Below, one piece after another: positions 46,851 through 64,000 of a stretch of DNA of 64,000 bases. Source of the stretch: an uncultured Halobacteriovorax sp. (GTDB taxonomy: Bacteria > Bdellovibrionota > Bacteriovoracia > Bacteriovoracales > Bacteriovoracaceae); the NCBI GenBank assembly GCA_913061265.1, contig CAJXVS010000002.1, forward strand, positions 186,001 to 250,000. Direction: 5' to 3'. The position numbers were made by a program, and so were the translations under genes. The first letter of the stretch is position 1; each line of letters begins with the position of its first letter. Below the pieces are notes generated by a model that was not told where the DNA came from, ran no database searches, and saw only the letters and a list, made by a program, of their open reading frames with translations.

Positions 46851-47693
46851 ATGGCCAAGAAGCTGATTTTATTTATTTCTCTAATCCTGATGTCCAGTTG
46901 TAGTTTTGTTTTCTATCAGCCGGATCGGTTTCTTCACGCTCTTCCAGAAAAATATAAAACTGAATACGAGCAGCGCTGGTTCGAGGCTTCTGATGGGACT
47001 AAGCTTCATGCTTGGTTCTTACTGAACTCTGAAAAACTCAAAAAACCAAAAGGCCTCTTTATCTTCTTTCATGGAAATGCTCAAAATCTTTCGAGCCATT
47101 TTGCTAACCTAGTTTGGCTTACCAAGCATGGTTATGATGTCTTTATCTTTGACTATAGAGGCTATGGACTTGTAGATGGTCAGCCTAATCAACAAGGGGT
47201 TAATAAGGATGGGTTAGCAGCTCTTAACTACGGTCATGATCTCTTTAAGTCTGGGGGTTATAAGAAATTTATTGTTTATGGTCAGAGTCTTGGTGGGAAT
47301 ATTATGGCTCGCTCCTTTACTGAGTTTAAGCATAAAAAAGATGTGGATCTATTGGTCTTTGATTCAACTTTTAGTTCTTATCAAAGGATTGCATTTAATA
47401 AGTTAAAAAGAATCCCTATTACTTATGTTCTAAGTCCTCTTGCCTTTATCTTAGTAGATGACCGCTTCGCCTCTTATAAACATTTAAAAGATATTAAAAC
47501 CCCTAGTCTTATTATTCATGGACAAAAAGATATTGTTGTTGAGCCCGAGCATGGCAAATATATCTATGACAATATTGGTAGTGAGAAGAAATGGTTTTGG
47601 CCTATTCCTGGGGGACATCATATAGATGTCTATTTTCGGCATGACCACCGTTATAGGAAAAAGCTTTTAGATTTTATTGAAAAAGAAATCTAA
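46851..47693 (+). CDS. alpha/beta-hydrolase lipoprotein
   Basis: 280 residues. MAKKLILFISLILMSSC is a lipoprotein signal with Cys17. The hydrolase core shows FFHGNAQN (oxyanion region), VYGQSLGGNI (Ser nucleophile in GxSxG), LIIHGQKDIVV (Asp) and PGGHHIDVY (His), all in the correct order. This resembles the Bem46/YsgA-type family. It is divergent from tsaD and convergent with the tetraheme gene, whose stop overlaps by four bases. The substrate is unknown; an envelope esterase is likely. Confidence 0.88.
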   Translation: MAKKLILFISLILMSSCSFVFYQPDRFLHALPEKYKTEYEQRWFEASDGTKLHAWFLLNSEKLKKPKGLFIFFHGNAQNLSSHFANLVWLTKHGYDVFIFDYRGYGLVDGQPNQQGVNKDGLAALNYGHDLFKSGGYKKFIVYGQSLGGNIMARSFTEFKHKKDVDLLVFDSTFSSYQRIAFNKLKRIPITYVLSPLAFILVDDRFASYKHLKDIKTPSLIIHGQKDIVVEPEHGKYIYDNIGSEKKWFWPIPGGHHIDVYFRHDHRYRKKLLDFIEKEI

Positions 47694-49363
47694 GATTCAT
47701 TCTTAGGGCATGCAAGCATATCCATTTTCTTCTTAACTAAATCATGCTTAGGCGCCCCTGGTTTTCCATTTTCTTGAACGTCATACCACTCAGGTGATTG
47801 ATCAGGTACATGACAATTTAGGCATTTTTCCTTCATGTTCTCAACCTTCGCTTGAGGCGTGATTTCTGAAGAAATGGAAAAGGGATGTTCGTTATGGAGT
47901 TGGTGGCAGTTCATACATTGAACATTAGCGAAGTTATGAGTGACCCCTGCTTTCTCGTCTCTTTTAAGCCAAGCTTTTGAAAGCTTTTGAACCTTCTTTT
48001 TCGGAAGCTCTCTAATTGAATCGATTCCTTTAAAAGCCCTACCCACTTCTTGCCAGTAAGTCTTTTTTATCTCTTTGAGTTTGGCCTCTTCTGATTCTCT
48101 CTTCTTTGAGTACTTCATCTTATCTGTTTTTGTAATCTTGTATTTTTCCTTGTCGATATGAATCAATTCGTCAGGGAAAGCAAACCCATCAACTTCAGAA
48201 AAGCCTAAAGAGTGACAGCCAATACAAGTTAAGTTCTTATCTTCATTGGCATTTATTAAAGTAGCATAGGCAATTGAATGGGGGGTTTGACTCCAAAATT
48301 CAACTTGAGGCTCGTGACACTCAACACAGGAATTAGCAGTAGCTTTTTTTGTGACCTGACCTTTTGTATGATTGGCCATTTGGCTTTGCTCTTGGATCTG
48401 AATGACTTTTACTTTCTCTTTATGCTCATCGATAAAAGTTGAAAATGCATTTGGCCGTAACTTGTCCTTAAGTTCGTCACGAATCTCATGAAGAACCCAT
48501 GCATCTTTGGTTTTATCACCAGAGAAATCAACTTCAATTGAGCCTAGATAATGATTTCTTGAAAGGACCTGAGCTAGTTTTGTTGTCTTTTCTTCATATG
48601 GAATTTTTGTAAAACTTTGAGTATGCGCCCCTAAAACCCAATCGATAAAGGGAAAATCTTTGACTAGCTTTTGATCGTTTGGCATTCCTGAGTGAGAAAG
48701 AAGAATGAATCTATGCTTCTTATTATCCTTTGAATAACCCGCCTTCTGAAGTTCTGGCATAAAAGCCTTAAGCGCCGTACTTGGTGTTGTGAATAGTCCT
48801 TGAAACTTTGGAGGGAGAATATCTGGATCAACAATACCTGTCATAAAGAACTTATGTTCTCCCTTTTCAATAATAACGAGTTTCTTATGAGGAAGTTCTG
48901 CTTCGTTAGCAAAGTTCATAACTAAGTATTGGAACTTTGATTTCTCTAATAACTTCTTTAAAAATGGAGTTCCTAAGGCCAAATCCTGATCTCCAGGAAC
49001 TGCATAGTTTAAACCAATAAGGTCCATTCCAACGGCGAGGTTTTCGGCACCAAAAGTAAAGCTGTCTTTCATTGTTGGTGGAAGGTTTGGAGAAGGAAAA
49101 AGCATATCCCCAGTATCTAATAGGATCACTGATCCTGTAGTTTTCAACTCATGAAGTTTTCCTGCAACTTGAGGAAGGCCTCCAAGCGGGAAGTGCCTAC
49201 AACCGCAAGGGTGTGTTTCTCCATTTATATTATGACTAAAAACAAGGGAGAGTTTATCTTCTTTGATTTGAACAACTTCATGAAAAGGATTGGTAGGCTT
49301 AGATTTAGTGCAGGAGAAAAGAAATAGCCCTAGAAGTGCTAAATAGGAAAAAGTCATTTTCAT
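47690..49363 (-). CDS. lipoprotein: nucleotidase-like domain fused to four-heme cytochrome c domain
   Basis: 557 residues; Cys18 in LLGLFLFSC is the lipidation site. Residues about 38-300 follow the 5'-nucleotidase metallophosphatase fold: FSHNINGETHPCGC, LLDTGD, VPGDQD in place of GNHE, and LGAHTQ. Several metal ligands of the classic enzymes differ (Asn for the first Asp; Gln/Asp for NHE), so catalysis is uncertain. The last third has four CxxCH heme sites: CVECH, CIGCH, CMNCH and CLNCH. The gene lies in the Pal operon, 8 bases after the CpoB-like gene. An electron-transfer or redox-sensing role at the envelope is inferred. Confidence 0.85.
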   Translation of the reverse strand: MKMTFSYLALLGLFLFSCTKSKPTNPFHEVVQIKEDKLSLVFSHNINGETHPCGCRHFPLGGLPQVAGKLHELKTTGSVILLDTGDMLFPSPNLPPTMKDSFTFGAENLAVGMDLIGLNYAVPGDQDLALGTPFLKKLLEKSKFQYLVMNFANEAELPHKKLVIIEKGEHKFFMTGIVDPDILPPKFQGLFTTPSTALKAFMPELQKAGYSKDNKKHRFILLSHSGMPNDQKLVKDFPFIDWVLGAHTQSFTKIPYEEKTTKLAQVLSRNHYLGSIEVDFSGDKTKDAWVLHEIRDELKDKLRPNAFSTFIDEHKEKVKVIQIQEQSQMANHTKGQVTKKATANSCVECHEPQVEFWSQTPHSIAYATLINANEDKNLTCIGCHSLGFSEVDGFAFPDELIHIDKEKYKITKTDKMKYSKKRESEEAKLKEIKKTYWQEVGRAFKGIDSIRELPKKKVQKLSKAWLKRDEKAGVTHNFANVQCMNCHQLHNEHPFSISSEITPQAKVENMKEKCLNCHVPDQSPEWYDVQENGKPGAPKHDLVKKKMDMLACPKNES

Positions 49364-49371
49364 TTCTATCC

Positions 49372-50133
49372 TCAGATTTTAGCTAATAACTTCTTAGCCT
49401 CACCAGATTGTTTTGCCTTTGGAAAGCGTGTTAACAATTCATTAAAAGTTTGTTTTGCTTCTTCTTTTTTATTCATTCTTTGAAATGATTTACCAAGAAA
49501 GAGGAGGCCGTTCTTATTATAACCGCTTTTGGGAAAATCCGTAAAAAGTTTTGAAAAGTAGATAAGAACTTGATCATCTTGCTTTAAGATAAAAGAACAC
49601 ATACCAAGATTATGAAGGACCCTTGAACGCTGAGATCCACTAAGCTTTTTCTTAAGCAGGTCTTGAAGGAGGTTTTTAGCCTCTTTATATTTACCTTTCT
49701 TATAAGTGGCCATGGCCTTGTCATAAGCTGAAACCTTTTTACTTGATTTAGTTTTTGTAGCTGTCATTTTTGTTAGGCTGCTTAAAACTTTATCAAGATA
49801 GATCTTTTGATCAGCCACTTCAGCCTTCAAACTAGCGACTTCAGTGTTAAGGCTTTTATTATTCTCTTCAACGACAGTTAACTTATCTTTGAGTTCTTTG
49901 ATTTGATTTTGAACAGTAGTCTTTTGTTGATGACCACTCTCTTCAACTTGCCCTGTAATATTATTCATTCTTTCTTCGAGTTGCTGCATCCTTACAGTGG
50001 CTTCAGCAGTGATCTTTTGAGACTCAGAGACTTGTAGGTTTAAGGTCTCTACCATTTGTCCCTGTGCAATTTCTTCTTGAGTTTTACAGCTATTAAGAGA
50101 AATGATGAAAAGAAGTAATATTGTCCATTTCAT
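49372..50133 (-). CDS. cpoB: CpoB/YbgF-like coiled-coil TPR lipoprotein
   Basis: 253 residues. MKWTILLLFIISLNSC is a lipoprotein signal with Cys16; canonical CpoB is soluble, so this is a variant. A coiled coil (about 25-115) precedes TPR repeats: KAMATYKKGKYKEAKNLLQDLL, VLIYFSKLFTDFPKSGYNKNGL and EAKQTFNELLTRFPKAKQS, as in YbgF. By family knowledge CpoB links cell-wall synthesis and outer-membrane constriction with Tol-Pal. It follows the DUF4398 gene by 18 bases. Confidence 0.85.
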   Translation of the reverse strand: MKWTILLLFIISLNSCKTQEEIAQGQMVETLNLQVSESQKITAEATVRMQQLEERMNNITGQVEESGHQQKTTVQNQIKELKDKLTVVEENNKSLNTEVASLKAEVADQKIYLDKVLSSLTKMTATKTKSSKKVSAYDKAMATYKKGKYKEAKNLLQDLLKKKLSGSQRSRVLHNLGMCSFILKQDDQVLIYFSKLFTDFPKSGYNKNGLLFLGKSFQRMNKKEEAKQTFNELLTRFPKAKQSGEAKKLLAKI

Positions 50134-50151
50134 GGGACCATCCTTGAAGAA

Positions 50152-50469
50152 TTATTGAGGTATTGTGGTGACTTCGAGAGCTGCCTTTCGGCGAGAGATA
50201 AACTCAGCCTTCTCAGAAAATTTTTGAGAGATGACGGCATATTGCTTGGCTTTATTAAAATACTTTCTTTTATAAGAAGATTTTGCTTTTAGATAATAGA
50301 ACTCTGCTTTTCTAAAGAGTCCTGGAGCTAAAGTTTGAGACTTCGCTTCTTTAGCTGCGAGAAAAGCTGTTTGAGCTAGTCTCATTTCAAGCTTGGGGCG
50401 TGTCGTCGCTAGACCACAGCCCCCTAATGATAATGCAATAAATGCAAATATTATTGATCGCTTGAACAT
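50152..50469 (-). CDS. DUF4398-like small lipoprotein
   Basis: 105 residues. The lipobox is LSLGGC with Cys18. A helical mature part (about 85 residues) repeats an A-x6-A pattern (AQTAFLAAKEAKSQTLAPGLFRKAEFYY), typical of DUF4398 proteins. It lies between pal and the CpoB-like gene, with 7- and 18-base gaps. Members of this family often occur beside OmpA-like lipoproteins. Function unknown. Confidence 0.75.
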   Translation of the reverse strand: MFKRSIIFAFIALSLGGCGLATTRPKLEMRLAQTAFLAAKEAKSQTLAPGLFRKAEFYYLKAKSSYKRKYFNKAKQYAVISQKFSEKAEFISRRKAALEVTTIPQ

Positions 50470-50476
50470 GTCTTAA

Positions 50477-50998
50477 TTACTTTGCAGTAATGACGAAGTT
50501 TCCTCTTCGGTTTTGACCCCAAGCTGATTCATCATGACCAAAAGAAACTGGACGTTCTTTTCCAAAACTAATAGTTGAAACTCTTGATCCAGATACACCA
50601 AGTGCTACTAGGTAATTACGAACAGCTTTAGCTCTTCTCTCTCCTAGGGCAAGGTTGTACTGAACACCACCACGCTCGTCGCAATGACCTTCAACTTGAA
50701 CATCAACTGATGTCGCTGTTTTTAGGAAAGTGGCAGCAGCGCGAAGTTTATCTTTAGTGTCTGAAGATAAGCTTGCAGAATTGTAACCAAAGTAAATAGT
50801 CTTTAGAGGACCTGTCTTACCCGAATCACTATCGGCATTTAATTCAAGATCAACGTCACTTGAATCCATGTCATCAGTTGAAGAAACAGAAACGTCATCT
50901 CCAGCAGCTGTTTTCTTGTTTGAAGAACCACAGCTTGAAACCACTAAAGATAAGGCTAACGTCAATACGAGAGTTAAGCCTTTTAGAGGATGTGTCAT
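50477..50998 (-). CDS. pal: peptidoglycan-associated lipoprotein Pal
   Basis: 173 residues. MTHPLKGLTLVLTLALSLVVSSC has the lipidated Cys23. An acidic Asp/Ser-rich linker (about 25-60) leads to an OmpA-type domain: FGYNSASLSSDTKDKLRAAA, VQVEGHCDERGGVQYNLALGERRA (Asp and Arg that bind diaminopimelate are present), and ISFGKERPV. Pal tethers the outer membrane to the wall. It heads an operon of four lipoproteins. No TolA, TolQ, TolR or TolB gene is present here. Confidence 0.93.
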   Translation of the reverse strand: MTHPLKGLTLVLTLALSLVVSSCGSSNKKTAAGDDVSVSSTDDMDSSDVDLELNADSDSGKTGPLKTIYFGYNSASLSSDTKDKLRAAATFLKTATSVDVQVEGHCDERGGVQYNLALGERRAKAVRNYLVALGVSGSRVSTISFGKERPVSFGHDESAWGQNRRGNFVITAK

Positions 50999-51093: not shown

Positions 51094-53937
51094 GTGAAAT
51101 CTTTTTATTATTTATTCTTACCCATTGCGCTAAATTTTATCCTTAACTGTTTTACTCCAGTAATGGCTGAGACAATCTATAAAAAGAAGTCAGCTTCTGA
51201 GTTAACAGACGAGAAATTCACATATGCTCTTAGCGTTGAAACCGCCTTCGGTACCATGGACATTGAGGTTCACGCCACGGAGAAGAATGAGGCCTATGTT
51301 AAACGCGTAGCTCAAATCCTCTCTGAAGATGGAAAGAAAGTAATTGAATATTTTGGTTATGTACCTTTCAACACTCTACATATTTTAGTTGATCGCTTTG
51401 TGTCGGACCGGGTTTCTGATCGAGCCAATGGGGCAGCAACTGTCCGTCCTAGGCCCTGGATCCAACTTAACACGGCACCCCCACACGGAATTGAGCATTT
51501 AGTAACTCGAGGAGATTGGGTTAAAACCTTAGTTCTCCACGAATTGATTCATATTTTACACTTAGATCAAACCTCAGGTTTTATGAAGTTCTTACGTTAC
51601 TTCATGGGCTCAGATGGAAAACTAAACGGAGTTACACCTAGATGGTTCTCTGAAGGTATCGCCACTTGGGGAGAAGCTAAGTTTACTAATGGAGGAAGAC
51701 TAACAAGAGGGCTCTTCCATTTTGATTTTAAAAACAGAATGATCTCAAAGAACTTTTGTAAGACTTCTGTTTGTATTGATGATCCTGGAGTCTACCCATT
51801 TGGCAGTAGTGCTTATTGGGTTGGTTCTCATTTTTCTAAGTGGATTGAAGACAGAAAGCCAGGCTCTATTGCCTGTTTAGTTCGAGAAAATTCAAATAAT
51901 ATCCCGGGTTTTCTTTCTTGGTCCTTTAAAGATTGCTTAGGCGTTGATTATCAAACACTCTTTTCAATCTTTAGAAGTGAAGTTGTAAAATCAATTGATT
52001 TCGATATGAAAAACTTTCGAAAAACTTCCTTGGCCAAAAGCTTTAACCAAATAAAATTACGAAAGACAGAGCATCCTATTTTTTCTTCAGGTGTTCAGTT
52101 GGTAAAAGATAAAATCTATGTCAATCAAGTAAATGATCTGAGAGAAGATTACCTAAAGGTGATTGATCTCTCTAAGAAAAGCAAAGAGTCCCTTAGGCTT
52201 CCTGATGTTATTGAAAGCATCTTACCTAATACTCATGATGATTATCTTATTTTAAGAAGCTATAGGGAATTTAGCTCTCAAAACCCTATCAACTGGCTTC
52301 TCTTTTCAAGTAAGAAATCAAAAGTGGTTGAGAGGATCTCTTGGCCAAAAGCAAAATACCTCTTTCGTTTTAAAGATGGATCTTATCTTGGAATTCTCTT
52401 TAATAATAATACTTGGGAGATCTGGGAGCGAAGAGATGGTAAGGATGAGTTGATCTTTGATCTACCTCCCATGGCCACCTTGTATAACCCTGAAGTTGTT
52501 GAAAGAGATGGCAAAAGGTTTGTTAGCTTTAGATTCTTTGACTTTAAGGCGAAGCCTAACCATGAATACTTAAGAGTGGATTTAGACACAGCTAAAGACG
52601 AGGTTCTCTTTCAAAGCGATGACTCTTTGGAAGTTGTCGGATCTTGTGGGACCCACCGATTGTTGAAAACATCGGAAAATATTTATTCAGTCAATATTAG
52701 AAATGGCTATGTTTCAAACCTCAAAGATGAGTTAAAAGGGATTGTTCACCTAAAAGGAAACAAGCAAAATACAATGGTGCTCTTTGAAAAAGATCCTGAG
52801 AGGATCTATACAGCGAGGGGTAACTGTGAAAAATGGCTTGATGATAATTCAGGAATCGAATTAAAAAAAGATGAGACTTCAATCCCTACAACTGAAATTG
52901 ATTATATAGAAGATAAGAGTTCATATCCCGAATGGGACCACTTCCTCCCACATAGATGGGGCATTGGATACTCAGGAGGAGACTCCACGGCCGGTTGGGT
53001 CTTCTCGACAAGTATCAATGATCCTGGAAATGTTCATAATATCTCAGGAAGCTATAAGATCTATTCAAATAATGATGAGACAGGAGGGAGCGCTAGTTAC
53101 CTCTATAATAATCACTACTTTAATTTATCAGGGAGTTATTATAAAGAATTCTTAACTTCTAATACTAAGCCGACTCCTGATTCTATTGAAGCCGTAAGAG
53201 CTGTCATTCAAAAAGATTATTACTTTGGCTGGTTAAGGTTGATCCCCTCCCTCGCATACTCAAAAGGCAGGACTATAGATTTTATCTCAAATAGAAAGTA
53301 TCAAAAATACTTAGCGGGCTTAAATTTTACCACGGAAAATATCCACTCCGATGATCTCTTGAGAAGCGCAAGTCTTGATTTAAGCGTTGCTCAAACAGAT
53401 ACTATTGGGCGCCTTGATTACCTAAGTTATAGAGGGAGAGCTCGCTTTCAGTTACACCCTCATTATAAGTTTGATATCCTCACTCAAGCCACTTATGAAA
53501 AATTAGATAAGAGTGATCTCTCTAGTGGTGTTGCCTATGCTGGAGGTGCCAATGATTTTTCCGGTTACTCCTTTCATGAATTCTATGGCATTCAATCTAA
53601 TGACGCTTTTGGAAACGAAGTTTATACTGGAAAGTTAGAATTTAACTATCTTATCCATGATATTTACTCAGGACCTAAATTTATTCCTCTTTTTATCCGC
53701 AGAATAAAAGGGATTTTTGGAACAGGCCTCTTAAAGACTGACTTTGTTTTTATCGATGCTGATAAAAGATTCCTGCGCGATAAAATGCTTAGCAATCTCT
53801 ATATAGGTTTTGGTACTGAATTTACTATTCTTTATGGTGGAAGATTAAGGCTAGATATTATCTTAACAAAGATCATGAGCGATTCAATTATCAATGATCA
53901 GATTCAACAGTTAGCTTTAATTAAGGGGAGCTTCTAA
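51094..53937 (+). CDS. secreted gluzincin metalloprotease with C-terminal barrel-like region
   Basis: 947 residues from a GTG preceded by AAAGG. A signal peptide (about 1-25) is followed by a peptidase MA-like domain: H149-E150-x-x-H153 (HELIH) and E187 in WFSEGIA supply the zinc ligands and catalytic Glu. Residues about 300-600 carry repeated short strands resembling a beta-propeller (DRYL-type, EDYLKVIDLS, DYLILRSYR). The last 300 residues (GIGYSGGDSTAG to end) show many aromatic-ended alternating strands, such as LSGSYYKEF and DYYFGWLRLIPSLAYS, as in outer-membrane barrels. This would place the peptidase at the cell surface. The barrel call is from pattern only. Confidence 0.8.
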   Translation: MKSFYYLFLPIALNFILNCFTPVMAETIYKKKSASELTDEKFTYALSVETAFGTMDIEVHATEKNEAYVKRVAQILSEDGKKVIEYFGYVPFNTLHILVDRFVSDRVSDRANGAATVRPRPWIQLNTAPPHGIEHLVTRGDWVKTLVLHELIHILHLDQTSGFMKFLRYFMGSDGKLNGVTPRWFSEGIATWGEAKFTNGGRLTRGLFHFDFKNRMISKNFCKTSVCIDDPGVYPFGSSAYWVGSHFSKWIEDRKPGSIACLVRENSNNIPGFLSWSFKDCLGVDYQTLFSIFRSEVVKSIDFDMKNFRKTSLAKSFNQIKLRKTEHPIFSSGVQLVKDKIYVNQVNDLREDYLKVIDLSKKSKESLRLPDVIESILPNTHDDYLILRSYREFSSQNPINWLLFSSKKSKVVERISWPKAKYLFRFKDGSYLGILFNNNTWEIWERRDGKDELIFDLPPMATLYNPEVVERDGKRFVSFRFFDFKAKPNHEYLRVDLDTAKDEVLFQSDDSLEVVGSCGTHRLLKTSENIYSVNIRNGYVSNLKDELKGIVHLKGNKQNTMVLFEKDPERIYTARGNCEKWLDDNSGIELKKDETSIPTTEIDYIEDKSSYPEWDHFLPHRWGIGYSGGDSTAGWVFSTSINDPGNVHNISGSYKIYSNNDETGGSASYLYNNHYFNLSGSYYKEFLTSNTKPTPDSIEAVRAVIQKDYYFGWLRLIPSLAYSKGRTIDFISNRKYQKYLAGLNFTTENIHSDDLLRSASLDLSVAQTDTIGRLDYLSYRGRARFQLHPHYKFDILTQATYEKLDKSDLSSGVAYAGGANDFSGYSFHEFYGIQSNDAFGNEVYTGKLEFNYLIHDIYSGPKFIPLFIRRIKGIFGTGLLKTDFVFIDADKRFLRDKMLSNLYIGFGTEFTILYGGRLRLDIILTKIMSDSIINDQIQQLALIKGSF

Positions 53938-54975: not shown

Positions 54976-57900
54976 ATGAAACGAAGCCTAATCTTTATTC
55001 TTTTTACTTTTTACTGCGCAAATCTTTTTGCTTTTCCGTGGGTACCCTCAGAATTCTTAGTTGAAGAAAATGGTGTAACGTTAAAGATCACTTGCTCTCA
55101 AAAACAAGATCCGATTGCAGACCTAGGTCATATTGAAAAGATTGAGAATTTTTTAGATTGTAATAATCAGCCGATAGAATCTTATTGTGACTGTATTGCT
55201 AATAAGTATGAAAGCAAGCCTGCTCTATCTCCAGATCAGATTAGAACCTTAGAGACAGAGTTTGGTTTTTTCGGTAATTCTAACTTTCAACATCTTTCGC
55301 AAAAAGTTCAAGACATTGCTTTAAATCAACAAGTTCTTAGTATGTATGGTGACGATGAAAACGAAGCCTGCCTTGATATCAATAGTGGTGGTCCTCACGC
55401 AAGAGCTTATCAGAGGGTTCTAAATTCAACGAAAAGTGCCTTCGAAGAGGCAAAAACTAAAAACGATGATATTCCAGCTTATGTTAACTCAAAGTATATT
55501 GATGAAGCTCTAGTCTCTCAAGGCATGATTATGTCAGCGAAGTCAGAGAACTTTGATAATGAAAAAAATCAGGATTATGAATTTTTAAAAGAAGTAGCTA
55601 AGAGTATTGCTAAGGTGGATCCTGATATCTTATTAAAGGGAAAGACTCATAGAGACTTGATTATGAATTTTGGAACGGATGGAGTTCAGATTGATCCAGC
55701 CCTTAGAGCTCAATATGCTGACAATAAAGCCTTAGTGCCTTGGCAAAAGGGGATTAAGGAATTTGTTGTTAAGGGTGATAACAACTCAAACTATGCCAAT
55801 TCTCCTATCTATCAATCAATGAAGAGAACCTTTGAAAGCTTTGGTCCTTATGAAAAGGGAAAGTACATTGGACGTAAACAGATATTTTTTGAAAAGATGA
55901 TTCAAGCAGTTAAGAAAGTTGGCTTTAAAGAAAGTGATCTTAAGAAACTAGCTAATGATGAAAACCCCGTGATTGATGATTCTAAGTTCAAGAAGCAACT
56001 AAGCACAGATAAATTTAAAAACTCCATGAAACCTTTCGCTAAAGAGCTATGTGCAAACTCTGGATCAATCCTTCTCCAGGATGTTCGAACAAATGTTCTT
56101 GGTGGAAAAAATATGAACGCTTTTAATGAAGGTTTGTACCGGCATCAGGGCAGAAGTCTAATGTCTCAGCTATTGAATATAGACCCTAAAAAAGTTGACG
56201 GAGTAAAAGAGCTTATGAGGTTTTCCTCTATTCAAAAAAGGCTTTTCAGTCAAATGGCACAACAGTTTGATCATCTTGAAAATAAAACTGAGAAAGATAA
56301 AGAAGAGATCTCCAATTACATCCTTGAAAGAAAGGATCAAATGGGGCGCCTTTGGTGTGGAGCTAGTTATGTTTCAACTCAAATTAAAGAATGGAAAAAT
56401 CATGTTTTAAATGATGAAGAAGATAAAAGAAGATTGGTGCTTGCAAAACTTAGTACCTCTGAGCTTGAGGTTCAAGTCGGAAAAGTTCATGAAGACCTTC
56501 GAAATTTAGAGAATGAGTTTTATCAATTAGAGGCGATAACCGATGATATGAGTACCCGGATTATTTTGGCTGAAAATGATATTGAGCAGACACAAAACGA
56601 GATCAATGGGTTAAGTGATAGCCGAGCAGATCAAAAGAAAAAAGAAAAATTAGAAGAAAAATTAACAAATTTAGATTCACTCATCAATAGTTTAGTAAAG
56701 ACTGAAAAAGAAGAAAGTGAAAAAGCCTCTGACCTTTTAAAAGTCATCGATACCAAAGAAGCCTTAGCCGGTAAGATTATATCGGCTATTGATAATCTCA
56801 AGGAGGCATCGGTTAGAAATTATAATCTCAAGCCCGCCTCTACGATAAGCAGTCAAGTTTCAGGAGTTGAGCGTAGCAATAGCCCGATTAAAGCTAATAT
56901 GGGAGCTCACGTAGGAATGACTCAAGGATACTTAAACCATCAACTTTCTGATCAAGTTAAAGCTTTTACAAATGGAAAACCTTCCTTATTAGATGAAGAT
57001 CTTAGACTAGGGATGGAGTTCTTTAATGATGTAGGAGATGTCGAAAAATTCTTAAGTATTAAAAATAGAAAAAACGATCTTCCTTTTACAGTCACAAGTC
57101 TAGTTGATCAAACAATCGCAGATACTCCAATGCTAACCACTGATATTTCTGGTGCCGTTAAATTTTCGACTGAAAATATTGAAGCTATAAAAACAGCTAA
57201 GGTTACAGAGGAAACTCTTGGTATCCTTACTTCATCTACGGCCCTAGGTCTTAAAGAAGGCCTCGATCCAACTTTAACTGAAGAAGTAGGCTCGACTCTT
57301 GTCGCCATGGTTAACAATAGTACTGATAATATTGAAGGAAGTAATGCACCTGATGCAGTCAAAGCAGAACATAAGAATAATGTTACAAACTTCGACAAGG
57401 CCATGGAACCAGTTCTAGGTGAAATGAATTTTAGGGCCCGCGGAGAAAATGGAACACCCAAAGATATAAGAAGCATTATTGAAGAATCAATAGGGACAAA
57501 TCAAAAAGTAAGAAAGATAGCAAGCATGGGTAAAAAACCGAAGAGTTCAAATAGGTTGATTCCTCGAGAATTTTCAACTGAATTTGCTCCTACTCCAATT
57601 GCTAGTCCAGCTCCTGTTAAATTGCCGGCGCAGATCTTAGCTAATTCTAAAAAAATTCTTGGCCCACCACTCTCTCCTTCGTCAGTGGTCAAAGAAGTTC
57701 CCTTTGAGAGAAAAAGTTTTGTCACCAGTTCAGTTTCAGGGCCAAAGGCGGCAAAGAAGCTCGATACTTTAAGTTCTGCTGATGTAAAGGCGATCTTAAG
57801 TAAGAGGATGAGGAGTAATGCAAAAACTAAAAAGACCAGTATTGTTAAGCCGAAGAGAATAGTTGTTGATCCAAAGGTTCAAAAATTAAGAGATGAAATT

Positions 57901-58566
57901 GAAAAGAATAGGCTTATAAGTCAAAAGCTTGATTCTCAAATTAAAGAAACAACTGATCAGACTACGGCCTTAAAGAAGCGAGTTGACCCGATAGCAGTTG
58001 AAGATAAAAAAGCTAGGGTTGTTGCTACTCCAGTTGTTAAGGCTCCAAAGGCCAAGGTAATTGCCGCAAAGAAAAAAGTATCTTCGAGTACTAGAACTCC
58101 AGCAAGATCTAAGTCTTTTGGAGGCGGGTCACTAGGTGGCTCAGGTGGTGGCGGAGGATCAGCTGCTGCTACTTCGGCGATAGAAGGAAGAGTCTCTGGC
58201 GGAGTTGTAGTGAACGGGGAATTTATTCCAAGTGCTCTTTTAGCAAGAAGTATTGACCTTGATGGAGTAAAGCCTATCTCATCGGAATCAATAGTCTTAG
58301 GCTCTAAGAGCTCTTATGAAGCAAAAACCTCAACTAATAAAGCCGTTTCAAAAGGGAAACCTAGAGTGAAAAGTGCTTCATTCTCTTCATTATCAGTCGA
58401 TAAGAAAGAAGAATTTATACAAAAACAGTTTATTAAACTAAAAACAAATAGCCTCGTTATCGAAAATAGCGATGGATCAGAAGTAGTTGTTAAGTCAAAA
58501 GTAAGATTAAGAACCAGAATGAAAGTAGCAGATTTAAACGCTCTCTTCGAGAAGGTAGATGAATAA
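54976..58566 (+). CDS. giant secreted coiled-coil protein, paralog 1
   Basis: 1196 residues. A signal peptide (MKRSLIFILFTFYCANLFA) is followed by a domain of about 440 residues with all seven mature cysteines: C40, C62, C71, C73, C132, C359 and C461. Residues about 490-600 are coiled coil. The long cysteine-free rest is Ser/Thr/Lys-rich, with a Gly-rich stretch (GGGSLGGSGGGGGS) near 1045 and a C-terminal motif KKEEFIQKQF followed by a beta hairpin. The next gene shows the same cysteines in order, the CxCI...KP.LS and ..GFF.. motifs, and a matching C-terminal motif, so they are paralogs. The two overlap by 8 bases. No known enzyme motif; function unknown. Confidence 0.85.
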   Translation: MKRSLIFILFTFYCANLFAFPWVPSEFLVEENGVTLKITCSQKQDPIADLGHIEKIENFLDCNNQPIESYCDCIANKYESKPALSPDQIRTLETEFGFFGNSNFQHLSQKVQDIALNQQVLSMYGDDENEACLDINSGGPHARAYQRVLNSTKSAFEEAKTKNDDIPAYVNSKYIDEALVSQGMIMSAKSENFDNEKNQDYEFLKEVAKSIAKVDPDILLKGKTHRDLIMNFGTDGVQIDPALRAQYADNKALVPWQKGIKEFVVKGDNNSNYANSPIYQSMKRTFESFGPYEKGKYIGRKQIFFEKMIQAVKKVGFKESDLKKLANDENPVIDDSKFKKQLSTDKFKNSMKPFAKELCANSGSILLQDVRTNVLGGKNMNAFNEGLYRHQGRSLMSQLLNIDPKKVDGVKELMRFSSIQKRLFSQMAQQFDHLENKTEKDKEEISNYILERKDQMGRLWCGASYVSTQIKEWKNHVLNDEEDKRRLVLAKLSTSELEVQVGKVHEDLRNLENEFYQLEAITDDMSTRIILAENDIEQTQNEINGLSDSRADQKKKEKLEEKLTNLDSLINSLVKTEKEESEKASDLLKVIDTKEALAGKIISAIDNLKEASVRNYNLKPASTISSQVSGVERSNSPIKANMGAHVGMTQGYLNHQLSDQVKAFTNGKPSLLDEDLRLGMEFFNDVGDVEKFLSIKNRKNDLPFTVTSLVDQTIADTPMLTTDISGAVKFSTENIEAIKTAKVTEETLGILTSSTALGLKEGLDPTLTEEVGSTLVAMVNNSTDNIEGSNAPDAVKAEHKNNVTNFDKAMEPVLGEMNFRARGENGTPKDIRSIIEESIGTNQKVRKIASMGKKPKSSNRLIPREFSTEFAPTPIASPAPVKLPAQILANSKKILGPPLSPSSVVKEVPFERKSFVTSSVSGPKAAKKLDTLSSADVKAILSKRMRSNAKTKKTSIVKPKRIVVDPKVQKLRDEIEKNRLISQKLDSQIKETTDQTTALKKRVDPIAVEDKKARVVATPVVKAPKAKVIAAKKKVSSSTRTPARSKSFGGGSLGGSGGGGGSAAATSAIEGRVSGGVVVNGEFIPSALLARSIDLDGVKPISSESIVLGSKSSYEAKTSTNKAVSKGKPRVKSASFSSLSVDKKEEFIQKQFIKLKTNSLVIENSDGSEVVVKSKVRLRTRMKVADLNALFEKVDE

Positions 58567-61500
58567 GCTAAAGACTTATTTCGCAGTTATTCTTTATTTA
58601 GCAACTAATTCTGTTTATGCAGATAGGGGATTCGAGTCGACTGTTTCTCATATGCTAGGCCCTCTATCCACGATTGTTTGCGGCTTTGTAGAACCTAAAA
58701 AATCTGAATTAGAAAAATTTATAGAAGTTTCTGGAGAGCTAGATTGCTCTAACGAGAAGGATGTTAATAAGCATTGCGCGTGTATAAAAAAAGTTGAGCC
58801 TAAGCCACTTTCAACTCCCATGGAAAATAAATTTTTAGCAGAGCTAGGTTTCTTTCCTCCATTTGGAGATCCAAGTAGTACAAAGCTATTGAGAGATTTG
58901 AGTAACTATAACTCGCTTCTTGGGGCTTATAGTTCTGATCCAGCAGTTAAGCTCCCTCTTAGTGCAAACTTCTTTTCTTGTTTAAACCCAGAAGAACTAG
59001 ATCAGATTGAAAAAACTATGAAAGATAACTTTCTAAATAGTGCTGACACAAAAATAGGTGTTCCTGCATTATACGACTCTGAATTGCTAAAGAAAGTTCG
59101 CTCCACTAATAATATAAAACTGATGGATCTTGACTCGAAAGTTGCGGACGCTGAATTCATAAGGGACATTGCTTCCTTTATAGCTAAAAATGAAGGAGAA
59201 AGTTCCGAAGCAGGAATTCTTTTGAGAAACTCTGATGGAGCAGATGTCTTAGCTAAGAGGGAGACTTTTTGGAAAAAAGAACCAGGTGATTATTCCCATT
59301 TCTCTAATGCTTTAAATGTAAATACGAGCACTGTCACTGATTCTCAAAGAGCTAGTATGGTTTCTGACTTTTTATCAAATAACTCTGAACTTGGTCTTAA
59401 ATATTCAAAGTCGCCTCTTTATAAGGTTTATACCCAAACCTATGAAAGGTCTCAATTAGATATTAGTGACTATCTCGGAAGAGTCGCTACAAAGTCTGGT
59501 ATGGTCAATAATGCTAAATCAAAAATTACTCAGAGTATTCATGAAGATCAAGAGGCCATTGAAAAAGCGGCTTATAAATTACCAACTTCAGTTTTTTTAA
59601 GAGGAGAGTGTGAAAGGTTAAAATCCGAGCTAAAAAGAAATGTCTCATCAAGTTTTAGGGCAGCCCTACCTGACTCTATGGTTACAGTCGAAGGTTACAC
59701 AACTACGATGAGTTATGAAAAGATGCTCCTATCACAGCAAAATGGAAGGTATATCTTAACCGGACTCGGTCCATTTGATCCAAATACAATGGAGGGAAGG
59801 ACTAATACTGAGAGCTTAAGCTTTTACCGTCAACGATTCATAGAGCAATACCGAAAAAACCTTGAGGTTTTTGATGATGAAAAGGCTGAGTACCTACTGA
59901 AAGTAAAGGACTTCAATTTTTCTCAACTGATATGTTCGAAAATAGAGGTTGATGAAGAGGTAGAGAAGGTTGTATTTGAAATTGGAAAGGATAAGAATAG
60001 TTCTGGAATACTTGAGAAAATCCTAGAGACAAAAGAAAAGGTGGCAGAGATTGATGAGAAAATTGTTCTTAATCAATTAAGAGCTGTGAGTCTTAATTCA
60101 GAGAAATCGAATTTAATCGCCGATAACTCAGCCTTGGAAAGCCGGAAGGCTGAGGCTAGTAAAAAGGTAGAGAAAGCCACGCAGTCCAAGGGGCGATACG
60201 CAAAAAGCACTAGCATTATTGCTAAAGGGACAATTGAATCAACAACAAAAGCCATAGAACTTAACAATTCTAGAATCGCTGAAATCGACCTCGAAAGTAA
60301 AAAGAAAGAAGAGGTCATCACGAATTTGGAGTTTCAAAAAGATCTTCTTACGAGTTCCTTTGAACTTCCCTCTCTAAAACTTGAGCCTTTAAACTTTGAT
60401 TTAGTTAAGTCAACAGCTAAAGACCCTTATACAGACTCTGCTTTTCGTAAAAGGATTAATGAGACTTTTCTTGGTTTAGAAATTGATGAATTTGTTGAGG
60501 AGTCAAGTGATGGAATCATAGCTCCTAAGAGAAAGACAATGTTAACTGGCAATAAAGATATACCAAAAGCTCAAATAATTTCTGAAAATATAGAAACAGG
60601 GGAATTTGAATTAATAACAAAATCTGAAGAAATTAAGAGAATCGCCAAAGCGGATGCAGATTTATTAAGCACTCAATCATTATCAATTCTTGATAATAAA
60701 GGAAAGATTACCGCTTCTGAGGCACAAGCTTTTACGGAAATAGTAAGACACCAGAGTAAAAAAACAATCAATATTCTTAAAGAATCTCAGATCAAAAAGA
60801 CAGAGACAAGAGAGCCTATAGTAGAAAAAGTTACTCCTGCATTGAAAAAATTAGTCGACGTTAACTCAAGCGCTGAAACAGTCGCTAAGGGTAGTGAAAT
60901 TCTAAAACTTGCAAGCAAAGGAGCTGTAGAACTTGTAAATAAAAGTGCCGCTAATGAAGATCTGGATCATGTAAAACTATCTTCAGTTAATGAGCAAGTT
61001 GGAGAGAATGGTCCCGAATCATCAAAGTCCGTTGGGGTAAACCTTGCTGAGTATATGAAGAACAACCCGATAAAAGGAATTAATCAGGGAGTAAGTCTTG
61101 TTCATGCGGACATAGGTAATATCGGGACTGCGGCAGTAAAGGATTATTCAACACTGAGGGAAGTCTTTAACTCTTCTAGAGATGATCATGTCGAATCGGC
61201 GAAGGCAAAAGTAAATAATGGAGTAAGCAAGATAGCAAAAGCCTTTACGACCGGAGGGATTTTTTCAGAAGCCCCAATTGATAGTCTTGAGGATATAGAA
61301 CAACTAGGAGAAGGATTAGCTGAGGCGACGAGAAAGAAACTCGAAGAAAGAGGAATAGATATCTCTGGCATCTCTTCTAAAGGGAGTTCTTCATCGGGCT
61401 TTTACGAAAACACCAAAGAAGCAAATGAATTAGAGCAAAAGAGTAGGTTGATGCGAAGAGAAGTAGCAAGTAAGAAAGGCAAATTAAAAGGAATGCAAAT

Positions 61501-62260
61501 TGGTAACATCGGACTTTCTAAGGATTTAGCTAGTCAAAAGCGAGTTGTTAGTAAAATGAAAGATTATAGTTCAAATATTAATCAATTTGATAATACAAAT
61601 TATCTGAGCAAAAATAAAAAAAATGAAAATAAAGAAGATAAAGAAATTACTATAAAAAATGAAGAAAAAGAAAATAAGGAATACACAGAAATCGGTCGTA
61701 GTAAACCTGCACTTTTTCCTGAAAGACAAAATATAGATCAGCCTGCTCTCAGCGGCTTAGAACCGGAGTCGAAAAGGATAGCCAAAGAAATAACTAGAGA
61801 AGTTCAAAAAGCAGGTCAAATAAGACAGGCAATACCTCGAAGTATTGGAAAGAGTAGTTCTAGCCCTAGAAAAGTTGGTTCAGCCGTTAGTCAGGGAGGA
61901 AGTAGCGGGGCATCTTCAAGCACTTCAGCAGGAACTGTTTCAAAAGATCCTTCTTCGCCAGCAGCAACAGGACGTTCTATAGCTAGTGTGAAAACCCCTA
62001 GGAAAGAAAATAATTTAAATTTTGATAATAAGGTATTGGCCTTAAATGAAAAAAGCTATGCAGTGACTCCAGTTCTCGAAGGTGTAGATAGTGACCTTTA
62101 CCTTAGGCTTCCAAGCTTTGACACACCGGAAAACTTCCTCGATTATTCAGCCGAGAATCGAAATAAATGGATTGCAGAGCAGTTTAAAAGCTCCAAGGCC
62201 CTAGAGGCCATTATTGTGCTCCCTAGTGGTCAGAAGGTCCTTGTTAAAAAGAAGGACTAA
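58559..62260 (+). CDS. giant secreted coiled-coil protein, paralog 2
   Basis: 1233 residues. A signal peptide (about 1-21) precedes a domain with C41, C63, C73, C75, C141, C351 and C459. Against paralog 1 the first two cysteines are both 22 residues apart, GFF is at 97-99 in both, and SPLYKVYTQTYE matches SPIYQSMKRTFE. Long coiled coils (about 480-610) and a Lys/Glu/Ser-rich low-complexity region (about 1020-1180) follow. The chain ends in NKWIAEQF and VLPSGQKVLVKKKD, like the end of paralog 1. Translation is probably coupled: it starts 8 bases before the stop of paralog 1. Function unknown. Confidence 0.85.
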   Translation: MNKLKTYFAVILYLATNSVYADRGFESTVSHMLGPLSTIVCGFVEPKKSELEKFIEVSGELDCSNEKDVNKHCACIKKVEPKPLSTPMENKFLAELGFFPPFGDPSSTKLLRDLSNYNSLLGAYSSDPAVKLPLSANFFSCLNPEELDQIEKTMKDNFLNSADTKIGVPALYDSELLKKVRSTNNIKLMDLDSKVADAEFIRDIASFIAKNEGESSEAGILLRNSDGADVLAKRETFWKKEPGDYSHFSNALNVNTSTVTDSQRASMVSDFLSNNSELGLKYSKSPLYKVYTQTYERSQLDISDYLGRVATKSGMVNNAKSKITQSIHEDQEAIEKAAYKLPTSVFLRGECERLKSELKRNVSSSFRAALPDSMVTVEGYTTTMSYEKMLLSQQNGRYILTGLGPFDPNTMEGRTNTESLSFYRQRFIEQYRKNLEVFDDEKAEYLLKVKDFNFSQLICSKIEVDEEVEKVVFEIGKDKNSSGILEKILETKEKVAEIDEKIVLNQLRAVSLNSEKSNLIADNSALESRKAEASKKVEKATQSKGRYAKSTSIIAKGTIESTTKAIELNNSRIAEIDLESKKKEEVITNLEFQKDLLTSSFELPSLKLEPLNFDLVKSTAKDPYTDSAFRKRINETFLGLEIDEFVEESSDGIIAPKRKTMLTGNKDIPKAQIISENIETGEFELITKSEEIKRIAKADADLLSTQSLSILDNKGKITASEAQAFTEIVRHQSKKTINILKESQIKKTETREPIVEKVTPALKKLVDVNSSAETVAKGSEILKLASKGAVELVNKSAANEDLDHVKLSSVNEQVGENGPESSKSVGVNLAEYMKNNPIKGINQGVSLVHADIGNIGTAAVKDYSTLREVFNSSRDDHVESAKAKVNNGVSKIAKAFTTGGIFSEAPIDSLEDIEQLGEGLAEATRKKLEERGIDISGISSKGSSSSGFYENTKEANELEQKSRLMRREVASKKGKLKGMQIGNIGLSKDLASQKRVVSKMKDYSSNINQFDNTNYLSKNKKNENKEDKEITIKNEEKENKEYTEIGRSKPALFPERQNIDQPALSGLEPESKRIAKEITREVQKAGQIRQAIPRSIGKSSSSPRKVGSAVSQGGSSGASSSTSAGTVSKDPSSPAATGRSIASVKTPRKENNLNFDNKVLALNEKSYAVTPVLEGVDSDLYLRLPSFDTPENFLDYSAENRNKWIAEQFKSSKALEAIIVLPSGQKVLVKKKD

Positions 62261-62395: not shown

Positions 62396-63397
62396 ATGAA
62401 AACAAAAGATGATTTAAAGACAATAGTAATTGGTGGCGGCGCAGCCGGTATAATGGCGGCCTTAAGAGGTGTCTTAAATAATGAAAGAGTTATTCTTTAT
62501 TTAGGCTCAGGAAAGGCCAGAAAGAAGAGCCGCGAGATGTGGGTCTCTAAAGTCGAAAACATGCCAGGCTATGAGCATTATAAAAAGGGGATTGTTAACC
62601 CTAATAAAGACACACTTACTTGGATAAAAGAAAGTAAGTTTGCTGAGAACTTAGAAGTCATCAGAACTTCAGTCAAAGAAATCAAGAAGCTTGATGATGG
62701 TAGCTTTGAAGTTATTGATGAAAAAGAGAATACTCAAAAGGCTTTTGCCGTTGTATTGGCCACGGGAGTGATGGACGTTCAACCTCATATTCAAGGTAGC
62801 ATCGAACCAGTTCTTCCTTACGCTAATGTTCAATTGATTGATTATTGTATTCGTTGTGATGGGCATCATGTTCATGGCAAAAGAACCTCGATCATAGGGC
62901 ATGGAAACGTAGCAGGGTGGATTGCGATTCTTTTAAAAGAGCGTTACGACGTTAAAGATATGGTTGTTCTCACAAATGGTGAAGAGCCTGAGTTTGATGA
63001 TGAAGTTAAAAAGCTTCATGAGGCTTATGGGGTGACTATAGAGAAATCACCTATTAAAGATATCAACGGTAATGCTAAAGAGCTCATCCTTGAAGGATAT
63101 GTTCTTGAAGATGGAACAGAGATCAAGAGTGATATCTCTTTCGTCTCTTTAGGCATGCTTGTTTATAATGAACTCGCCACTGCTATAGGAGCTGAGGTTG
63201 ACGGTAGGGGCTTTGTTAAAACGAATAGTAAAGGTGAAACAAATATTGAAGGACTTTACGCAATTGGGGATCTTCAAGCAGATACAAAGAAACAAATCTA
63301 TACGAGTTGGGATATGGCAGTAGATGCACTAGATGATATCGACAACAAAATTAGAAGAATATTAAGACAACAAACACTAGATAATTTTGGAGGATAA
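62396..63397 (+). CDS. thioredoxin-reductase-like flavoprotein
   Basis: 333 residues. FAD-binding [10 protein letters not shown] (about 13-22), the redox pair C151/C154 in YCIRCDGH, the NAD(P)-binding GHGNVAGW (about 168-175) and GLYAIGDLQ near 288 follow the TrxR order. The CIRC pair corresponds to CATC of E. coli TrxR. It probably reduces a thioredoxin or glutaredoxin-like partner. The adjacent gene, starting 1 base after its stop with a GGAGG site, is a peroxiredoxin-glutaredoxin hybrid, so it may be its electron donor (inference). Confidence 0.88.
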
Positions 63398-63398
63398 A

Positions 63399-64000
63399 AT
63401 GAATTTAGAAAACAAAGAGGGACAAAAGGTTCCAGAAGTAATTTTTAAAACAAGAAAAGATGGTGACTGGTTAGATGTATCGACTAAAGATCTTTTCGCA
63501 GGAAAAAAAGTAGTCGTCTTTTCATTGCCTGGCGCTTTTACGCCAACTTGTTCATCAACTCACTTACCGCGCTATAACGACCTAGCTCCAATCTTTAAAG
63601 AAAATGGAGTGGATAGTGTTATCTGCCTTTCAGTAAACGATGGTTTTGTTATGGAAGCTTGGGGCGTTGATCAAGAAGCAGAGAATATTCAATTGATTCC
63701 TGATGGAAACGGAGAATTCTCTGAAGGCATGGGGATGCTTGTTGATAAATCGGCCATTGGTTTTGGAAAAAGATCATGGCGCTATTCAATGCTGGTTAAT
63801 GATGGAGTGGTTGAAAAGCAATTCATCGAACCAGATAAGCCAGGAGATCCTTTTGAAGTAAGTGATGCTGATACAATGCTTAACTTCATCAATAAAGATG
63901 CCGTCGTAAGCGACGGGGCAACTGTCTTTACTAAAGTTGGGTGTCCTCACTGTAAAGCTGCTAAAGAGTTACTAACCGCCAAAGGAATTAAGATCACTGA
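63399..64000 (+). CDS. hybrid peroxiredoxin-glutaredoxin, cut by window end
   Basis: At least 200 residues; the C-terminus lies beyond the window. Residues about 1-165 are a Prx5-type peroxiredoxin with the peroxidatic Cys in [18 protein letters not shown]. After a short linker a glutaredoxin domain begins (about 170 on) with the active site GCPHC in [16 protein letters not shown]. The fusion is known from hyPrx5 proteins, which reduce peroxides using glutathione. A GGAGG ribosome-binding site precedes the ATG. It probably shares a transcript with the flavoprotein gene. Confidence 0.92.

Follow-up and report, generated by a model that had tools for sequence, protein, structure and literature searches.

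Two adjacent genes of the window, the 64,000-nucleotide stretch of DNA analysed here, encode exported giant proteins, A and B, that belong to a real and new protein family, without a described relative in anything searched; among the genomes searched, a single bacterial family carries these giant genes. The homology of A and B resides at their two ends, in a cysteine-containing N-terminal head and a C-terminal tail, and we favor the reading, with a probability of about 0.4, that proteins of this type may act as exported two-ended scaffolds or tethers of the cell envelope.

The gene pair and its two conserved ends

The initial annotation had described A and B as neighboring paralogs sharing an N-terminal cysteine domain and a C-terminal motif. 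Its coordinates and lengths (1196 and 1233 residues) were reproduced exactly; the two genes are direct neighbors with an overlap of 8 nt (Table 1), and a Shine-Dalgarno-like GAGAAGG lies inside gene A ahead of the ATG of gene B. The mature cysteines of A and B correspond exactly in the pairs 40/41, 62/63, 71/73, 73/75, 132/141, 359/351 and 461/459, an additional Cys 14 of A falling within the signal peptide, and the short motifs CxCI, GFF, SPxY and FIQKQF/WIAEQF are present. A direct blastp comparison aligned residues 38–461 with an E value of 7e-8. The N-terminal local alignment score (residues 21–480) reached 155 versus 42.8 ± 6.3 in 200 shuffles (maximum 73), about 17 standard deviations above, and the last 80 residues scored 52 versus 25.3 ± 4.5 (maximum 45), whereas the alignment score of the middles did not rise above that of the shuffles. 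The homology is therefore real and located at both ends, in keeping with the paralogy proposed before.

Table 1. Features of genes A and B (window positions; residue numbers refer to the respective protein)
Feature	Position	Strand	Basis
Gene A, exported giant protein, 1196 aa, first of the pair	54976..58566	+	ORF; orthologs in G001 and G002
Gene B, second paralog, 1233 aa	58559..62260	+	ORF; orthologs in G001 and G002
Overlap of genes A and B, 8 nt	58559..58566	+	
A, signal peptide, residues 1–19, ending LFA before FP	54976..55032	+	12-residue hydrophobicity peak 2.21 versus ≤1.47 in the rest of A; cleavage site judged by eye
B, signal peptide, residues 1–21, ending VYA before DR	58559..58621	+	Hydrophobicity
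A, five-cysteine module, C40–C132 including C71-x-C73	55093..55371	+	Five cysteines invariant in 34/34 aligned sequences
A, C359 to C461, sixth and seventh cysteines	56050..56358	+	Kept in 27/29 members
A, all-helical N-terminal domain, about residues 50–479	55123..56412	+	AlphaFold model
A, coiled-coil hairpin, about residues 483–614	56422..56817	+	Model helices 468–530 and 535–599 (model numbering); heptad score
A, small helical domain, about residues 717–815	57124..57420	+	Block pLDDT 66–91; 71.7% identity G001 versus G002
A, basic Lys/Pro/Ser/Gly-rich linker, about residues 818–1075, mostly disordered, one predicted helix	57427..58200	+	pLDDT mostly <50; composition
A, C-terminal alpha/beta module, residues 1113–1195	58312..58560	+	Core block pLDDT about 83–86; own profile matches family ORFs only; held-out test
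B, five-cysteine module, C41–C141	58679..58981	+	Cysteine pattern as in the family
B, C351 to C459	59609..59935	+	Cysteine positions
B, C-terminal module, without the last helix of A	62039..62257	+	Tail profile

The hallmark of the head is a set of five cysteines, which superpose without exception in the 34 aligned sequences at identities down to about 10%. In A, B and all 29 measured members a signal peptide is followed by this C1–C5 pattern with its CxC element, the spacings in the 29 being 19–24 (C1–C2), 9–12 (C2–C3) and 57–70 (C4–C5) residues; none of the 29 has a strongly hydrophobic stretch beyond the signal peptide, and no lipobox was seen in the signal peptide of A. Across 27 full-length members, the first 480 residues contain all 202 cysteines counted past residue 20. 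One exception to this N-terminal restriction was found later in genus g37 (L162:3995-7315), where cysteines occur near the C-terminus (1005, 1018, 1037, possibly more).

The sixth and seventh cysteines are both absent in L120 and L121 (genus g8), and the middle of L120 matches HEAT_2 at 27.9 bits (cut-off 27.7 bits) while head and tail remain. From their joint loss, C6 and C7 are probably bonded to each other, and the replaced middle suggests that head and tail are the constant parts of the protein. Leaving out signal-peptide cysteines, 19 of the 27 full-length members contain seven cysteines, one contains nine, three contain eleven, two contain five and two contain eight, the genes at the sdh locus having four extra cysteines. 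The number is odd in 25 of the 27, A and B included, and even in B of G001, which has eight. In members with an odd count, at least one thiol cannot take part in an intramolecular disulfide; the five-cysteine module probably has one cysteine to spare, which could form an intermolecular bond, in a homo- or hetero-oligomer, or stay a free thiol. The head disulfides themselves are putative, and the C40 region is of low confidence in the model.

AlphaFold predicted the head of A (29 sequences) with a pLDDT of 79.5 and a pTM of 0.76 as all helical except for a weak N-terminal hairpin. In the full-length model of A (pLDDT 62.1) the head is followed by a helical hairpin (about residues 483–614), disorder, the small helical domain, disorder with one helix, and a beta/alpha tail. 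According to this layout the middle is coiled coil only in part: the long cysteine-free middles described for A and B stand as far as cysteines are concerned, with no mature cysteine past residue 461, but the coiled coil shrinks in the model of A to one hairpin, the remainder up to the tail being mostly disorder and a small helical domain (about 717–815).

Foldseek found no match at E ≤ 0.001 for the head of A in the PDB and BFVD, nor for full-length A in the PDB. With VIA-align, the best partners of the head were vinculin/talin bundles (Z 5.5, 104–117 residues), within the range of the tool for common helical arrangements, and the full model of A returned generic coiled-coil hairpins only (best Z 11.2, rmsd 4.6, 140 residues). 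The geometry of such hairpins is common. The solved antiparallel hairpins of IpaB, Smc and PspA/Vipp1 resemble A in its coil hairpin alone (model residues about 460–606), and no common head, tail or sequence family was found with them.

At the other end of the protein, a tail profile trained on g1 and the main g3 sequences gave L118, L113, L123 and L121, all held out from training, higher scores than any of 1160 shuffled proteins; no other held-out member was reported above threshold. In 129 genomes of the class, a tail-only profile built from 12 sequences gave 24 matches at E <1e-5, every one at the end of a family ORF and half of them (12) from outside the training set, with the next match at E 0.016; A and B, both in the training set, scored 4.2e-19 and 8.6e-17. 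It follows that head and tail travel together, though the profile misses the tail in the most divergent groups (the sdh-locus genes, L116/L117 and L119). Library matches of the tail to pyrrolysyl-tRNA ligase (E 0.0088), uL6 (0.011) and small heat shock proteins (0.04–0.08) were taken as chance. Between G001 and G002, protein A retains 60% identity in the cysteine module, 23.8% in the coil, 71.7% in the small domain and 74% in the tail; the neighboring reductase retains 95%.

Extent of the family and its genomic setting

A profile search, as the initial annotation had suggested, placed A and B in a lineage-specific family with no fewer than 35 members, so that they are not a lone pair. The final head profile recovered 35 loci at E <1e-6 from 18 genomes in seven genera, all from one family of Bacteriovoracales, and a wide gap separates them from the next matches at 0.002. 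The count is a lower bound, and genera without matches may hold members too divergent for detection; convincing matches occurred in 7 of the 48 genera of the class. With an earlier head profile, no convincing match from beyond this bacterial family emerged among 369 genomes of the phylum (best outside match E 0.0018, a frame of 51 aa). Two weak search matches, L037 and L038, were dropped as long coiled-coil proteins without the cysteine head.

Full-length members (n = 27) measure 841–1233 aa, and identity between groups is only about 10–20%. Because members of different groups thus differ in 80–90% of their residues, their absence from every curated library searched can be rationalized. A and B had no significant whole-protein match in Pfam, NCBIfam (both at curated cut-offs) or PHROGs, and nothing in these libraries or among PDB sequences explains the family, in agreement with the view that the pair fits no known family. 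No match to the head was found in phages, and no paper describing the giant-protein family was found in the literature.

The number of copies per genome varies from one to five (15 carriers scanned again). In genus g3 (Halobacteriovorax-like) all five genomes have 3–5 copies at conserved chromosomal places, and genome G004 has three. The A/B pair itself is present in both other genomes of the window genus examined, intact in G001 with the same upstream and downstream genes as in the window genome (G000), and split over contigs C39 and C141 in G002. A third, unpaired copy resides in the window genome (C2:288956-292222, i.e. L015:6957-10223) and another in G002 (L018). In the tree, the deep branches of which are long and poorly supported, the window genus forms one clade (98/98) with A and A2 versus B. 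Outside this genus the genes mostly occur singly; a single further tandem pair is present, in G079, and falls among the g3 genes, apart from the window genus.

Family loci lie between hemF-like and nifU/sufS-like genes in g3 and g10, and in g3 also beside mdh-like and U32-peptidase-like genes or opposite sdhCAB-like genes, all names coming from reading the sequence and not from database matches. That positions are shared between genera suggests that the genes were inherited vertically from early on. The loci differ between groups, and no neighboring gene accompanies the family throughout. At the hemF-like locus of g3, the giant gene is directly preceded by tandem exported paralogs of about 400 aa with a QENFGIKEKV-like start and four C-terminal cysteines (L035:3187-5692, L036:3256-5777, L111:2827-5313); three of these proteins were scanned and had no Pfam match. 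Beside the giant gene locus of G050, an 876-aa ORF resembles an RHS/YD-repeat protein (L035:8-2638).

Upstream of A, a 947-aa protein (window 51094-53937) carries the motif LHELIH (HExxH) and a C-terminus that resembles an outer-membrane barrel and ends in F. It has no Pfam match at E ≤ 1 and is a candidate for an undescribed, class-wide exported metallopeptidase. Its synteny in G000 and G001 made this gene a potential functional partner. However, homologs occur in 110 of the 129 class genomes, many of which lack giant genes, and in G004 the gene is remote from the giant genes; it is therefore treated as a neighbor only. On the other side, directly downstream of the pair, a pyridine-nucleotide-disulphide oxidoreductase is followed by a peroxiredoxin-glutaredoxin fusion (window 62396-63998), conserved in G001 and G002; these redox genes are possibly coincidental neighbors. 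Farther upstream, on the minus strand (window 47690-50998), an OmpA/Pal-like gene and a CpoB-like TPR gene adjoin a 557-aa protein with multihaem cytochrome motifs.

Possible roles in the envelope

If the giant protein is a scaffold or tether, it would be exported by Sec by means of its predicted signal peptide, and its head would be locked by disulfides. Head and tail would each bind their own partner in the envelope; coil and linkers, to the extent that the predicted disorder is real, would serve as spacer, and the protein would be a long scaffold or tether, located either in the periplasm or at the cell surface. The extra cysteine of the five-cysteine module may link such proteins into homo- or hetero-oligomers, or stay a free thiol, and A and B could be two specialised subunits of the scaffold, duplicated within the window genus. 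Exported coiled-coil scaffold proteins are, in the broad sense, a known kind.

The main alternative is a surface-exposed predation factor, namely a long fibre or adhesin whose tail would anchor it to the cell and whose disulfide head would be brought to the prey. The lineage of carriers includes a MAG named Halobacteriovorax sp., a genus of obligate predators (PMC11656739), the very fast divergence between groups would suit a contact surface, and the protein is large, flexible and predicted to be exported. However, we saw neither a known surface anchor nor an autotransporter barrel, lipobox or secretion signal, and the restriction of convincing matches to so few genera of the class argues that the giant family is no general predation part. 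We regard this role as possible, though doubtful.

A disulfide-locked heterodimer, in which A and B would be joined through the extra cysteine of each head, appears unlikely. The adjacent, overlapping genes stay paired throughout the three genomes of the genus, and the odd number of mature cysteines in both proteins is compatible with such a bond. On the other hand, the single genes outside the genus and the grouping of the G079 pair with g3 genes mean that a fixed A–B partnership cannot be general; the unpaired third copies in G000 and G002 and the even cysteine number in B of G001 point in the same direction.

Even less likely, and by analogy only, A and B might polymerize in the periplasm into a periskeleton that gives the cell its shape, like CrvA and CrvB of Vibrio cholerae. 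The latter two are exported, work as a pair and build periplasmic polymers that shape Vibrio (PMC8938487). The resemblance lies in two paralogs side by side that encode exported coiled-coil proteins; by description, A and B, which have no known relation to CrvA and CrvB, differ in their helical cysteine head, disordered linkers, alpha/beta tail and lineage, and in the model of A the coiled coil covers only about 130 residues, most of the rest being globular or disordered. In this context one may consider Ccrp of Bdellovibrio bacteriovorus, a coiled-coil-repeat protein from a predatory bacterium of the same phylum, cited in PMC8938487 and described there as coiled-coil-rich and intermediate-filament-like; nothing in that description connects Ccrp with the cysteine head or tail of the giant proteins. 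Secreted effectors delivered into prey, with the tail as export or delivery signal, are very improbable: the common tail behind a Ser/Ala/Gly-rich linker and the variable middles resemble delivery-tag designs, but the 28 members scanned contained no convincing toxin or enzyme domain (one weak Tox-REase-2 match, E 0.046), and no immunity gene or secretion operon was noticed beside the loci read.

A more specific version of the scaffold reading, which we consider a long shot, is that the Halobacteriovorax lineage possesses a new envelope machine, a set of exported two-ended giant scaffolds whose head would adopt a fold not seen in any solved structure. The unpaired head cysteine would cross-link them into oligomers, and prey contact, or life within the periplasm of the prey, would depend on them. 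Be that as it may, genes of about 1000 codons at one to five copies per genome must earn their cost. The head domain without a recognised fold is a target for structure determination, and the g3 copies, by virtue of their number, their conserved places and their presence in all five genomes, are tangible candidates for functions in the envelope or in predation that are specific to this lineage.
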